From contig NZ_JAIWJX010000002.1 in NCBI RefSeq assembly GCF_023149135.1, forward strand, positions 558,001 to 622,000: a DNA stretch of 64,000 nt, written 5' to 3'. Positions within the stretch are counted from its first letter, which is position 1, and each line of letters opens with the position of its first letter. The DNA comes from Fictibacillus marinisediminis. GTDB lineage: Bacteria; Bacillota; Bacilli; Bacillales; Fictibacillaceae. Below the pieces are notes generated by a model. That model did not search any database. It was not told the origin of the DNA and was given only the letters and a program-made list of their open reading frames with translations. Positions 47,668 to 52,021 of this stretch are shown piece by piece. A program made the position numbers and the translations under genes.

Positions 47668-49224
47668 TTAAAATACTTTTGTCGTCCAGTCTTCACAGTT
47701 CCAGACTTCGGTAACAACATCACGATAAAATTCAGGTTCATGTGAGATCAGAAGTATGCTTCCTTTATAGGCTTTTAATGCCCGTTTAAGTTCATCCTTA
47801 GCATCTACATCCAAGTGATTTGTCGGCTCATCCAGAACAAGAAGGTTCGTCTCGTTGTTGATCAGTTTGCAGAGGCGGACTTTTGCTTTTTCTCCTCCGC
47901 TGAGTACCTGCACCTTGCTTTCGATGTGCTTCGTTGTCAGGCCGCATTTTGCAAGTGCGGAACGGACTTCATGCATGTTGAAAGAAGGGAACTCGTTCCA
48001 AACTTCATCAATACACGTATTGTTATTATTGCTTTTAATCTCTTGCTCAAAGTATCCGATATGCAAAAATTCGCCTTGTTCCACAGAACCGGAGATCGGT
48101 TTGATTTCGCCAAGAATGCTGCGCAGCAATGTTGTTTTTCCGATTCCGTTCGCTCCGACAAGAGCGATCTTTTGTCCGCGTTCCATTCTGAGATCGAGTG
48201 GGCGGGAGAGTGGCTCGTCATATCCGATGACCAGGTTTTCGGTTTCAAAAATCATCTTTCCGGATGTGCGGGCTTCTTTAAAGTTGAATTCCGGCTTTGG
48301 TTTTTCTTTCGCCAGTTCAATAACATCCATTTTATCCAGCTTTTTTTGGCGGGACATGGCCATGTTTCGAGTGGAAACACGCGCTTTATTTCTGGCAACA
48401 AAATCCTTCAGCTCAGAAATTTCCTGCTGCTGGCGCTTAAAGGCAGCTTCAAGCTGCTGTTTTTTCGCTTCGTGAATATGCTGGAAGTAGTTATAGTCTC
48501 CTACATAGCGGTTAAGCTCTTGATTCTCCATGTGGTAGATCAAGTTGATGACACTGTTTAAGAATGGAATATCATGCGAGATCAAAATGAACGCATTCTC
48601 ATATTCCTGCAGGTAGCGTCTCAGCCACTCAATATGCTGTTCATCCAAATAATTGGTCGGCTCATCCAGCAAAAGGATTTCAGGCTTTTCAAGCAAAAGC
48701 TTCGCAAGAAGAACCTTCGTACGCTGACCGCCTGACAGCTCATGAACATCACGGTCGAGGCCGATATCTTCCAGACCAAGTCCGCGGGCAATCTCTTCTA
48801 CTTTTGCGTCTATAACATAAAAGTCGTTGTTCGTTAACGTATCTTGAAGAACCCCAACATCCTCTAAAAGTTTTTCAAGTTCTTCCGGAGTAGCTTCGCC
48901 CATTTTTTCGTACATGCTGTTCATTTCGTTTTCAATATCAAAGAGGTATTGAAACGCACTCTTCAGCACATCGCGAATGGTCATTCCTTGCTGAAGGACT
49001 GTATGCTGATCGAGATACCCGACCCGCACTTTCTTTGCCCATTCTACTTTTCCTTCATCTGGCTGCAGTTTGCCGGTGATGATGTTCATAAAAGTGGATT
49101 TACCTTCACCGTTTGCTCCGATTAAGCCAATGTGTTCTCCTTTAAGGAGACGGAAGGAGACATCATTAAAAATCGCACGGTCACCAAAACCGTGGCTTAA
49201 GTTCTTTACTGTTAAAACACTCAT
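47668..49224 (-). CDS. ABC-F family ATPase
   Basis: A 518-residue soluble protein with two ABC ATPase domains in tandem and no membrane segments. First domain: Walker A GANGEGKST (about 36-44), signature LSGGQRTKVLLAK and LLLDEPTNYLD. Second domain: GANGIGKTT, LSGGEKAKVRL and LVLDEPTNHLD. The linker (about 240-310) is basic and coiled-coil-like, as in ABC-F proteins that act at the ribosomal E site as translation factors or antibiotic-protection proteins. Which of these roles applies cannot be told. ATG at 49224 has AAAAGG upstream. Confidence 0.9.
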   Translation of the reverse strand: MSVLTVKNLSHGFGDRAIFNDVSFRLLKGEHIGLIGANGEGKSTFMNIITGKLQPDEGKVEWAKKVRVGYLDQHTVLQQGMTIRDVLKSAFQYLFDIENEMNSMYEKMGEATPEELEKLLEDVGVLQDTLTNNDFYVIDAKVEEIARGLGLEDIGLDRDVHELSGGQRTKVLLAKLLLEKPEILLLDEPTNYLDEQHIEWLRRYLQEYENAFILISHDIPFLNSVINLIYHMENQELNRYVGDYNYFQHIHEAKKQQLEAAFKRQQQEISELKDFVARNKARVSTRNMAMSRQKKLDKMDVIELAKEKPKPEFNFKEARTSGKMIFETENLVIGYDEPLSRPLDLRMERGQKIALVGANGIGKTTLLRSILGEIKPISGSVEQGEFLHIGYFEQEIKSNNNNTCIDEVWNEFPSFNMHEVRSALAKCGLTTKHIESKVQVLSGGEKAKVRLCKLINNETNLLVLDEPTNHLDVDAKDELKRALKAYKGSILLISHEPEFYRDVVTEVWNCEDWTTKVF

Positions 49225-49382
49225 CTATATGCACCTTTTCTTGTTTGTTAAGATTACCATTTGATTATAGTATTAATTGCAGGGAGAACTCAATCTTTCT
49301 GAAGGATTTTTCAAAGAATGTTTCGTATAGAGACATGATGGGGAACTTTTCATGCAGAAGGGCTAAAAAGGAGGGGTGCAGA

Positions 49383-49580
49383 ATGAATGATTACAGTGTA
49401 GTTCCTGATCAAGGTGAAAATGGCTGGATCGTTAAAATTCAAGATGTAGCACCGACCGATACTTTTCCCAGCCGTGCTGAAGCGATTGCAAAGGCTGAAA
49501 AGCTGGCAACGGAAGACAAACCAAGCCGTGTGCTTGTGTATGATACCCAGCTGAAAGTGGAAGAAGAAAAGATGTTTTAA
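49383..49580 (+). CDS. DUF2188 family protein
   Basis: A 65-residue protein: YSVVPDQGENGWIVKIQDV, then a helix (SRAEAIAKAEKLA) and a final strand SRVLVYDTQL. This matches the small DUF2188 fold, unknown function. ATG at 49383 follows AAGGAGGGG. A strong terminator follows. Confidence 0.8.
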   Translation: MNDYSVVPDQGENGWIVKIQDVAPTDTFPSRAEAIAKAEKLATEDKPSRVLVYDTQLKVEEEKMF

Positions 49581-49618: not shown

Positions 49619-49650
49619 CAAAAAAAGGAGCCTTGGGTCCAAGACTCCTT
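49619..49650 (-). terminator. Terminator closing the micropeptide unit
   Basis: On the minus strand AGGAG(T)CTTGG pairs with CCAAGG(C)TCCT around ACC and is followed by seven T. It lies downstream of the three tandem tiny ORFs and faces the DUF2188 terminator. Confidence 0.8.
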
Positions 49651-49744
49651 CAATGCTTTTCGTTGTTCAACTTACGTGGTTTTTCTTGCTTGTTCACGTG
49701 CAATTGATTCACGTACATTCATTCGTCCTACAAACTGCTATATT

Positions 49745-49819
49745 CTAATTCGCTTTCTCACTATTAGGTCCATCTCTCGGTTCTTCGCAAGTTTCGGAAC
49801 TAAGGTCGTTCCGATTCAT
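49745..49819 (-). CDS. Tandem micropeptide A (24 aa, SETC-PRDGP family)
   Basis: A 24-codon ORF with TGGAGGG 7 nt before its ATG. Residues 7-21 read SSETCEEPRDGPNSE, and the core sits at the same residue positions as in micropeptide B. Against the sister copies, conserved Thr uses ACT/ACC/ACA and the second Pro CCT/CCA/CCG, so third positions vary while the peptide is kept. There is no signal peptide or membrane segment. I do not recognise the family. Confidence 0.7.
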   Translation of the reverse strand: MNRNDLSSETCEEPRDGPNSEKAN

Positions 49820-49893
49820 GACAAATCCCTCCATTTGGGTCTGAATAGTGTTTTCACTCATTTGTTAACAAACTAATAATTTCTAACTATCCT

Positions 49894-49980
49894 TTAAATC
49901 GCTCTTACACACGTGCATTCACTACTTGGTCCATCTCTCGGATCATTGCAGGTTTCGGAACTGTAAACGTCCTTACCCAT
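49894..49980 (-). CDS. Tandem micropeptide B (28 aa, SETC-PRDGP family)
   Basis: A 28-codon ORF with CTGGAGGG 6 nt before its ATG. Residues 7-21 read SSETCNDPRDGPSSE; the tail adds a second Cys pair (CTC). The upstream stretch GCAACACTAT is shared with copy C (about 50248-50257). Soluble, charged, no leader sequence visible. Its stop is 75 nt before the start of copy A. Confidence 0.7.
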   Translation of the reverse strand: MGKDVYSSETCNDPRDGPSSECTCVRAI

Positions 49981-50135
49981 TGCAAACCCTCCAGTATATG
50001 ACTTATAGTGTTGCATCTTCATAAATCATAGAGCTGATCTTTACTGCTTTAAAACTTTGAAGCTCAACTTACGGTTCTAACACATCTTGCTTTGTTACTT
50101 CAAAACTGTCTTGCTTTACAAACATATGAACCTTG

Positions 50136-50225
50136 CTACTCTTTAATTCCTATTTCTGTGTTGCATTCACTATTCGGTCCATCTCTTGGCTCATTGGATG
50201 TTTCGGAACGATTGTTCTTTCTCAT
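50136..50225 (-). CDS. Tandem micropeptide C (29 aa, SETC-PRDGP family)
   Basis: A 29-codon ORF with ATGGAGGG 7 nt before its ATG. Residues 7-20 read SETSNEPRDGPNSE; the family Cys is Ser here and a Cys follows the core. It is the first of the three copies in transcription order, 97 nt after the methyltransferase stop. The gap holds the palindrome at 50301-50320, so it may have its own promoter. Confidence 0.7.
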   Translation of the reverse strand: MRKNNRSETSNEPRDGPNSECNTEIGIKE

Positions 50226-50300
50226 CACAATTCCCTCCATATGGTTGACATAGTGTTGCATGGTTTGTTTTCCCGGTACGAAAAATTTAAAACATCTTTT

Positions 50301-50320
50301 ACAATAAAAATTTTTATTGT
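50301..50320. promoter_or_regulatory. 20-bp perfect AT palindrome after the methyltransferase gene
   Basis: ACAATAAAAATTTTTATTGT lies directly after the methyltransferase stop codon. It may act as a weak terminator or as an operator for the micropeptide genes. Confidence 0.5.
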
Positions 50321-50321
50321 T

Positions 50322-50933
50322 TTACGTTTCCTTGATGGCAGTTACGGTCACTGCATCTACAGGCTTCTTGTTCTTAATGCTATCGGAAATCTGAGAGAAG
50401 CCGGCTTCTTTTAAATAAAGCGAGATAATGGTTCCAATTTCTTTTGTGGTATCATCATCTGCTCCCTTTTCGTGGGGCTGAAGGGTAACCGCAATACGAG
50501 CCTTTTCTTTCATCAGACGTTTAATCTTTTTAAGATCTCCAATCGGATCTTTCCAGATCAGGATGGAATTGACGGTATACACGCCATCAAATTTCGGGGC
50601 GTCTTCATCGGCAAAAGTGATCGGGCCCTCAAAAAGCTCCACACGCCCTTCTTTTATAAACGCTTCGTTTCTTGATTCCGCCTGTTCCTTCATCACTTTT
50701 GAAACATCATAGCCTACAATGTGACAGGAGGGGTAATTGATGCAGACATATTCAATGCCTACACCAGGACCAAAACCGACTTCAAGAAGACGGTCATGTG
50801 TTCCGGGCTGTAAAGCTGAAATCGTCCATTCATTCAATTCCTTGTTTTCGTTGGACATGATTTTTCCAGCCAGTTTTCCGAGCAGACCCTCGGGTTTTTC
50901 AAACTGTTCGGAGATGTTTTTCCTAATGCTCAT
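50322..50933 (-). CDS. Class I SAM-dependent methyltransferase
   Basis: A 203-residue soluble methyltransferase. SAM-binding motif I is RLLEVGFGPGVGIEYV (about 50-65) and motif II is HIVGYDVSKVMKEQA (about 74-88). Later motifs are FDGVYTVNSILIW and a C-terminal strand pair ending DAVTVTAIK. The substrate is unknown. The frame opens at 50948, but ATG at 50933 has GGGAG 8 nt upstream. It is followed on the same strand by three micropeptide ORFs; whether it acts on them is untested. Confidence 0.85.
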   Translation of the reverse strand: MSIRKNISEQFEKPEGLLGKLAGKIMSNENKELNEWTISALQPGTHDRLLEVGFGPGVGIEYVCINYPSCHIVGYDVSKVMKEQAESRNEAFIKEGRVELFEGPITFADEDAPKFDGVYTVNSILIWKDPIGDLKKIKRLMKEKARIAVTLQPHEKGADDDTTKEIGTIISLYLKEAGFSQISDSIKNKKPVDAVTVTAIKET

Positions 50934-51019
50934 GCGGCACACTCCCACTTTTTATTATATATTTCAATGTACCCAAAAGGGAGGTGTTCAAAGCAAAAAG
51001 ACAGCCAGGCGCCTGAAAT

Positions 51020-51060: not shown

Positions 51061-51711
51061 TTACATTTTATTCGTAAACCCTGTATTCTTCTTAAAAAAA
51101 TAGTAGGATGACCCCACGGATAGTATGGCTGCACCAAGGAGGGCAGGAAGAATAATATAATCTCTCCAGTTGGACGGTGCAAATAAAGAAAGCAGAACAA
51201 TTATACCTGCTGCAACAAAAACTTTGGAGCTGAAACGGTGGGTTTGCCGCCAGACGTTCTCATCAGCCAGCGTCCACGGAGTCTTGATTCCAACAAAATA
51301 GTTCGGTTTTACCTGCTGCATATAGTTTCCTAGAACGATAAACAGTCCTCCAAGAATGAGGGGCATTAACGAGTTCATCGGAAGTTCGTAGCCAAGTCCG
51401 ATCAGAATAACCATAAGATTGATCAGGAAAAAAAAGATGAACAGGGAAAAGTTAATCATGGAATAGCTGCGCGAGAAACTTTTATAATTTTCTTTTTTGG
51501 GATCGATTTTCGGCAAGAATTGGAGCAGGAGATACATAAGAATCATAATACCAAGATTTGTGAGCATGGCCCCCAGTTTGGAAGAATACCCGTTGATTTC
51601 GCCTTTCGCATTCCAGTGGATAGGCAGTTCAGCCGGCAGCTTGGAGTAAAACACAAGCCAAAGAGCCGCCGCCGCAAGAATGAGCAACACAGGAAATACA
51701 TGTTTTTTCAT
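51061..51711 (-). CDS. sdpI: SdpI family membrane protein
   Basis: A 216-residue protein with about six membrane helices. The N-terminal DUF1648-type segment contains LPAELPIHWNAKGEINGY, and the C-terminal SdpI domain has NYFVGIKTPWTLADENVWRQTHRF (residues about 140-163). In B. subtilis SdpI gives immunity to the SdpC cannibalism toxin and also sequesters SdpR at the membrane. No sdpABC toxin genes lie in this window. It overlaps the sdpR stop by 4 nt, so translation is coupled. Confidence 0.88.
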   Translation of the reverse strand: MKKHVFPVLLILAAAALWLVFYSKLPAELPIHWNAKGEINGYSSKLGAMLTNLGIMILMYLLLQFLPKIDPKKENYKSFSRSYSMINFSLFIFFFLINLMVILIGLGYELPMNSLMPLILGGLFIVLGNYMQQVKPNYFVGIKTPWTLADENVWRQTHRFSSKVFVAAGIIVLLSLFAPSNWRDYIILPALLGAAILSVGSSYYFFKKNTGFTNKM

Positions 51712-51995
51712 TTTTCGTTCTCTCCTTTGTCCTTATAATCGGCTTGCATGACACCCATGAACCAGTTCATGACATCGTGAAAAACGGTTGTATTGAGAGA
51801 GTAGATGACGAACTGGCCTTGTTTCACATCTTGTATGAGTCCGGTTTTCTTTAAGGTGTTTAAGTGATGGGAGATGGTAGGTTTGGTCATTTGAAAATGA
51901 TCCGCAATTTCGCCTGCGCTTAGATCCTGATTCTTTAGCAAATCAAGAATTTTACGGCGGGTGGGGTCGGATAATGCCTTAAATACTTCATTCAA
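51708..51995 (-). CDS. sdpR: ArsR-family repressor SdpR
   Basis: A 95-residue winged-helix repressor: VFKALSDPTRRKILDLL, then the recognition helix in DHFQMTKPTISHHLNTL and the wing in QGQFVIYSLNTT. It lacks the metal-binding Cys pair of ArsR sensors, as does SdpR. TTG at 51995 after GGAGTGG matches the start of B. subtilis SdpR (MNxVFKAxSD); an ATG nearby is out of frame. It should repress its own operon through the palindrome at 52022-52047 until SdpI captures it. Confidence 0.9.
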   Translation of the reverse strand: MNEVFKALSDPTRRKILDLLKNQDLSAGEIADHFQMTKPTISHHLNTLKKTGLIQDVKQGQFVIYSLNTTVFHDVMNWFMGVMQADYKDKGENEK

Positions 51996-52021
51996 TAAAA
52001 TCCACTCCAATTGGAAGAAAA

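Follow-up and report, generated by a model that had tools for sequence, protein, structure and literature searches.

Tandem hairpins enclosing micro-ORFs behind a methyltransferase gene suggest a Fictibacillus-restricted small RNA, probably of dual function

Small RNAs that titrate CsrA carry repeated GGA hairpins, several in one RNA, and their copy number differs between species. A cluster of sRNA genes in Staphylococcus aureus is said to contain one member that encodes a peptide (PMC5496865). SR1 of Bacillus subtilis, together with SR1P, is described as a dual-function sRNA (PMC8501984). RAPP-like arrest peptides include SecM, ApdA, ApdP and the RQH family (PMC10987492, PMC12992588). The SigB-regulated stress genes of Bacillus are described with the promoter consensus GTTTAA-N15(+/-2)-GGGTAT (PMC9847131). 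In this study, we describe a locus of Fictibacillus marinisediminis that can be compared with these systems. Like SR1/SR1P, it would combine a short ORF with a role at the RNA level in one small transcript, its promoter, terminator and ORF being predicted from the sequence; unlike SR1, for which a relation was checked through the Rfam search only, the ORF lies inside a hairpin that is repeated in tandem, with one to four copies. An RNA with several hairpins, in a number that varies between species, recalls the CsrA-titrating sRNAs. However, the second GGA is not conserved here (GGG in genome G032, GGC in copy 3 of genome G060), and a CsrA sponge was set aside because of this variation. The peptide core ends in R-D-G-P, once in R-A-G-P, and RNA structure surrounds the putative stall point, as in the RAPP-like peptides insofar as the available parts of PMC10987492 and PMC12992588 describe them; in contrast to those, the peptides of the window are very short, have no signal sequence and have no regulated gene downstream. 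The promoter predicted here, GTTTTA-N13-GGGAA, is of the type described for SigB-regulated stress genes in the available part of PMC9847131, whereas the product would be a repeated structured RNA.

The window, that is, the whole stretch of 64,000 nucleotides that was analysed (contig NZ_JAIWJX010000002.1), carries three short ORFs on the minus strand. A sequence-only reading had pointed them out, and they translate as it stated: micro-ORF 1 (50136..50225, 29 codons, MRKNNRSETSNEPRDGPNSECNTEIGIKE), micro-ORF 2 (49894..49980, 28 codons, MGKDVYSSETCNDPRDGPSSECTCVRAI) and micro-ORF 3 (49745..49819, 24 codons, MNRNDLSSETCEEPRDGPNSEKAN). It had also placed GGAGGG 6-7 nt ahead of each ATG, and this holds for all three. 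The peptide core that it saw as shared is present in the three-way alignment of the window copies, which has a mean column identity of 71%, and conservation reaches upstream of the ORFs, again as claimed. Ten changes separate the three copies within the 11-codon core, and 8 of these fall at third positions. Directly upstream of the RNA lies a gene for a SAM-dependent methyltransferase (50322..50933, minus strand; Pfam Methyltransf_25/11/12), with 96 nt from its stop to the first ATG. The arrangement is more than chance, because six other genomes have related hairpins in the corresponding position behind this gene.

The sequence-only reading did not mention that each ORF sits within a long imperfect hairpin of about 100 nt, nor that a SigB-type promoter lies between the methyltransferase gene and the first hairpin. 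The hairpins stand one, three or four in a row between this promoter and a terminator. In the window, copy 1 (50162..50261), copy 2 (49914..50016) and copy 3 (49756..49853), all on the minus strand, match the covariance model R1 at E values of 4e-27, 5e-26 and 2e-19; all three are training sequences of R1, which was built from seven copies. The helices are P1 at the foot, then P2 to P5 with internal loops between them. The foot P1 is TGCA-a-CACTAT / ATAGTG-aa-TGCA, and its outer TGCA part is absent from copy 3. P2 is CCAT/ATGG, P3 is GG/CC, P5 is GAAC/GTTC, and P4 lies between P3 and P5. The Shine-Dalgarno (SD) site falls in or beside P3. Copies 1 and 3 fold better than shuffled sequences (z -2.67 and -2.99), and copy 2 is not significant alone (z -0.80). 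In the minimum-energy fold of the whole 644-nt transcript (z -2.19; one of 20 shuffles was as good), the foot helix is kept in copies 1 and 2, and copy 3 forms the inner helices only, its foot helix not being formed. The divergent single copy of G032 with the 100 nt behind it (202 nt) folds into the same hairpin (z -2.38).

In an alignment of 18 distinct rows fitted to the model, 91.8% of 417 cells pair, a value reached by one of 500 shuffles, and slid-structure controls pair at most 38.7%. The alignment contains 11 double-changed cells (0 of 500 shuffles), its covariation score was not reached either (0 of 500), and four pairs show a double change (21 of 500). The 17 further pair types are not significant (210 of 500). 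A change from C-G to U-A in P1 occurs in three of the rows, and in copy 2 of G002 as seen by eye. These stronger covariation values belong to an alignment fitted to the structure and made of related sequences; the first alignment of seven sequences gave no significant covariation (80 of 500), and RNAalifold on a plain MAFFT alignment gave seven pairs only, with no double change. By eye, copy 3 of G005 has lost P4 with its ORF open.

The promoter predicted for the RNA (50270..50293, minus strand, found as a pattern match) is SigB-type by consensus, and the predicted transcript start lies near the foot of hairpin copy 1. All 7 loci have GTTTT[AG]-N13-GGG[AT]A 8 nt ahead of the hairpin foot, and the letters of the spacer vary. 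The 13-base spacer was set from the sequence itself; an earlier pattern with a 14-base spacer gave no match. The bare motif is common (10 matches in the genome of the window, 25 for the reversed control), so the support for the promoter comes from its conservation in place. A SigB factor is found above the family cut-off in all 34 family genomes, and the RNA may well depend on it. A sigma-70 scan gave five sites against 2.0 expected. One of them, a sigma-70-like site (9 of 12; 50053-50025, minus strand), lies between hairpins 1 and 2, ahead of copy 2; thus a second start is possible, and a single SigB transcript is not the sole possibility. At the other end, the unit is closed by an intrinsic terminator, at the place where the sequence-only reading had proposed a terminator (49620..49650, minus strand), and its 12-pair stem is formed in the whole-transcript fold. 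The terminator scan omitted this site and gave two others instead. The stem is shared by six of the seven loci; by eye, G032 has a different GC-rich stem with a T-run. Ahead of the terminator we spotted, also by eye, a conserved linker, CCACGTAAGTTGAACAAC (49662..49679, minus strand), and a related linker, AAGTAAGTTGAAACAA, in G032.

Of 34 family genomes searched with R1, 7 contain hairpins, 20 in all: three each in the window's genome, G060, G002, G004 and G005, four in G003 and one in G032. Seven of the 20 had trained R1, nine are training sequences or identical to one, and 11 are not; most had first been picked up with a short pattern. The fourth copy of G003 (L019:3769-3866) is decaying and has lost its ATG. 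The 3' flank of copy 3 in the same genome resembles, by eye, that of copy 2, which suggests exchange between copies. Over 397 sampled genomes of the order, searched with stricter filters in a sample that held part of the family only, R1 matched three genomes and gave no convincing hairpin outside the genus. Two of the three (G000 and G004) belong to the genus itself. The third match, in G293 (E 0.08), was rejected as chance-level, and by eye it overlaps the apparent start of a protein gene. A pattern search of the genome_contigs collection returned 26 stretches; six from Fictibacillus were taken as real, and the other 20 were judged to be chance by their organism, not individually. One pattern match in a viral contig was likewise attributed to chance by eye, the frame with a ribosome site and start there encoding another peptide. 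A tblastn search of peptide 2 in plasmids and a blastn search of the region in phages and plasmids gave no match, and the methyltransferase has no relative in the viral_contigs collection by the search tool used. With no match in these searches, a mobile or phage origin of the RNA was rejected.

Rfam at the gathering score gave no match in the whole window, and at a permissive E value the region gave two chance-level matches (E 2.1 and 2.9). No such RNA appears, by title, in the literature on Fictibacillus small RNA, and the wider literature holds nothing alike among the matches listed. The evidence points to a previously undescribed RNA element of Fictibacillus. With it, the Bacillales would gain an RNA that has a stress-type promoter and is confined to one lineage.

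To see what is conserved, we compared the window with G002, G003 and G004, always in this order. At fourfold sites, the methyltransferase genes are identical at 37, 30 and 33% (n = 62, 60 and 61). Hairpin 1 is identical at 98, 97 and 96% over 100 columns, hairpin 2 at 92, 86 and 84% (85, 101 and 101 columns) and hairpin 3 at 82, 81 and 85% over 97 columns, despite a broken ORF in copy 3 of these three genomes; gapped columns were excluded. Against the more distant G032, hairpin 1 keeps 76% identity. Third positions of ORF 1 are identical in 15, 15 and 14 of 16 cases, which has a probability of 8e-5, 8e-5 and 7e-4 if each had the 46% of the gene. Copy 1 is therefore almost free of synonymous change beside a methyltransferase gene near saturation. 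Paired cells are kept in 83 of 88 cases in broken copies and in 347 of 379 in open ones. When an equal number of random substitutions was placed on copy 3 of the window, the mean pairing was 73-78%, and P was 0.003-0.016 for each broken copy, a value per copy among related copies. Because hairpin 1 is kept despite the divergence of the gene and hairpin 3 is kept with a broken ORF, we regard the RNA as the main selected object. The evidence points to an RNA shape preserved more strongly than the tiny peptides.

This bears on what the sequence-only reading had called a duplicated small-protein system. The duplicated unit with a small ORF stands, but conservation is not confined to the peptide, nor is the peptide its main object. 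Frameshifted homologues, which that reading would have counted against itself, do occur: the ORF is lost in 4 of 20 copies (copy 3 of G002 and G004, copies 3 and 4 of G003), and the pairing of the hairpin persists. These ORFs are broken by a frameshift with a weakened ribosome site (GGAGTG or GAAGTG) or by a lost start. The other 16 copies are open from the SD through the core. That reading had also held that the copies differ mainly at third positions. This is so when the differences among the window paralogues are included (16 of 24 changes in the core, p 0.0009); without the paralogues, open orthologues show 8 of 14 (p 0.058). In broken copies, 4 of 8 changes fall at third positions, and open and broken copies do not differ (Fisher p 1.0). 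The ORF seems to form a second, weaker layer of selection, and there is moderate evidence, short of proof, that it is translated.

Overall, we believe that the locus is probably a small RNA gene in its own right, with tandem hairpins and of the general-stress (SigB) type. A dual-function RNA is its most likely form, because the hairpin seems to be the first target of selection and the ORF a weaker one. The RNA would be built from the hairpin of about 100 nt, present in one to four tandem copies and closed by the terminator. Within each hairpin lie a Shine-Dalgarno site and an ATG, followed in most copies by a short ORF. By their repetition, the hairpins may provide a set of similar sites in trans that a protein or target RNAs could bind, and ribosomes on the micro-ORF would open the hairpin. 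Our sequence analysis shows copy number, support for the structure, conservation of promoter and terminator, nucleotide constraint and adjacency to the methyltransferase; we infer transcription, SigB dependence, translation, a partner in trans and a coupling between translation and the opening of the hairpin. No target or partner of the RNA was found. The locus also offers a small natural test case for constraints that overlap: one set of bases would serve both hairpin and peptide, and nature provides copies in which the ORF is broken and the hairpin kept.

The RNA may instead be purely structured and non-coding, the SD, ATG and ORF being a by-product of a conserved loop sequence with no purposeful translation. 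Nucleotide constraint in excess of coding constraint and the four copies that lost the ORF but kept their pairing agree with this. So does copy 1 of G002, G003 and G004, in which a one-base insertion directly after the core truncates the ORF. However, all seven genomes retain at least one copy that is open from the SD through the core, and the length differences among copies 1, 2 and 3 and the copy of G032 preserve the frame by eye. The third-position lean among paralogues and the weakened SD of the broken copies also speak for translation, and we consider a purely non-coding RNA unlikely.

A special case of the dual-function reading, whose likelihood therefore overlaps with it, is that each tandem hairpin of a stand-alone stress RNA carries its own arrest peptide of 17-18 residues ending in RDGP. 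Conservation of the peptide ends at PRDGP and the residues beyond vary; in copy 1 of G002-G004 a stop follows one codon after RDGP. Among the 16 open copies, RDGP occurs in 15 and RAGP, which is the SecM ending, in one (copy 3 of G005). The open copies agree at this point with the stall motif (R/Q/H)-(A/G/D)-(P/G/S)-(P/G) as given in the available part of PMC10987492, where RDGP was used as a query motif. Since conservation ends at this RAPP-like RDGP, the hairpin could be kept open, and so be switched, by a ribosome that stalls there. At most a few bases lie between the Pro codon of RDGP and the start of the 3' arm of P1; a stalled ribosome would cover this arm, free the 5' arm and the loops, and switch or stabilise the RNA. 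The available part of PMC12992588 describes a change from Ala to Asp as partly permissive in ApdA and ApdP, but reports that ApcA tolerated no Ala substitution, and in the parts of PMC10987492 and PMC12992588 available to us, stalling at RDGP itself is not documented. Up to and including RDGP, the ORFs encode only 17-18 mostly polar residues, and none has a signal-like N-terminus by eye. In addition, a terminator, not a regulated gene, lies behind the last hairpin in the seven loci, and four copies are broken. We regard arrest as a doubtful, quite improbable form of the dual-function reading. Should ribosomes stall at RDGP, the motif would cause arrest within a small RNA that no gene follows, and stalling would then control this small RNA and not a gene downstream.

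A family of micropeptide genes, with the peptide as product and a hairpin that only controls its translation, would explain the shared core, the SD sites with their position in or beside P3, and the third-position lean among paralogues. It fits poorly with an ORF 1 that hardly changes at synonymous sites between strongly diverged loci and with pairing that is kept where the ORF is broken. The peptides match no known family: NCBIfam gave no match, and Pfam gave one sub-threshold match to one peptide (E 0.27). We give this explanation little credence.

The sequence-only reading had named the methyltransferase as a candidate partner and had asked whether homologues always follow it. They do: the hairpin locus stands directly behind the same gene in all seven genomes with the element, and the pair is constant (in six loci, and in G060 by positions) although the other upstream neighbours vary. 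This adjacency is the positive evidence that the enzyme makes a modified peptide, RiPP-like or of another kind; since the RNA has its own predicted promoter, we see no evidence for modification beyond it. Moreover, 94 of the 397 sampled genomes of the order carry a member of the methyltransferase family (E 1e-25), and the R1 search of 397 order genomes gave no convincing hairpin outside the genus; the enzyme has generic methyltransferase matches only, and ORFs are lost in 4 of 20 copies, so a modified peptide appears highly improbable. Within the family, 10 of 34 genomes have the gene at E 1e-20 or better, and the other 24 show neither gene nor hairpins. Its identity to that of the window is 56-100% in the seven hairpin genomes and 36-42% in G013, G016 and G020, three genomes in which R1 found no hairpin and inspection by eye showed none behind the gene (about 200 nt were viewed in G016).

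Several further features lie beside the RNA. A small DUF2188 protein is encoded on the plus strand, convergent to the RNA terminator (49245-49580); the RNA itself lies on the minus strand. In five genus loci, the gene that comes next on this strand after the RNA encodes a two-domain ABC ATPase (47668-49224, minus strand), which we take to be of the ABC-F type. ABC-F proteins act on ribosomes. Further upstream, on the minus strand, an ArsR-type regulator is followed by an SdpI/DUF1648 membrane protein (51061-52010), a pair that resembles a regulator with its immunity protein. Upstream of the methyltransferase gene, a stretch of the form CTTTT...GGGTACATTGA (50964-51000, minus strand) is much alike in six genus loci. 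It is perhaps a second, weaker SigB-type promoter, in which case the gene and the RNA would share one regulon.
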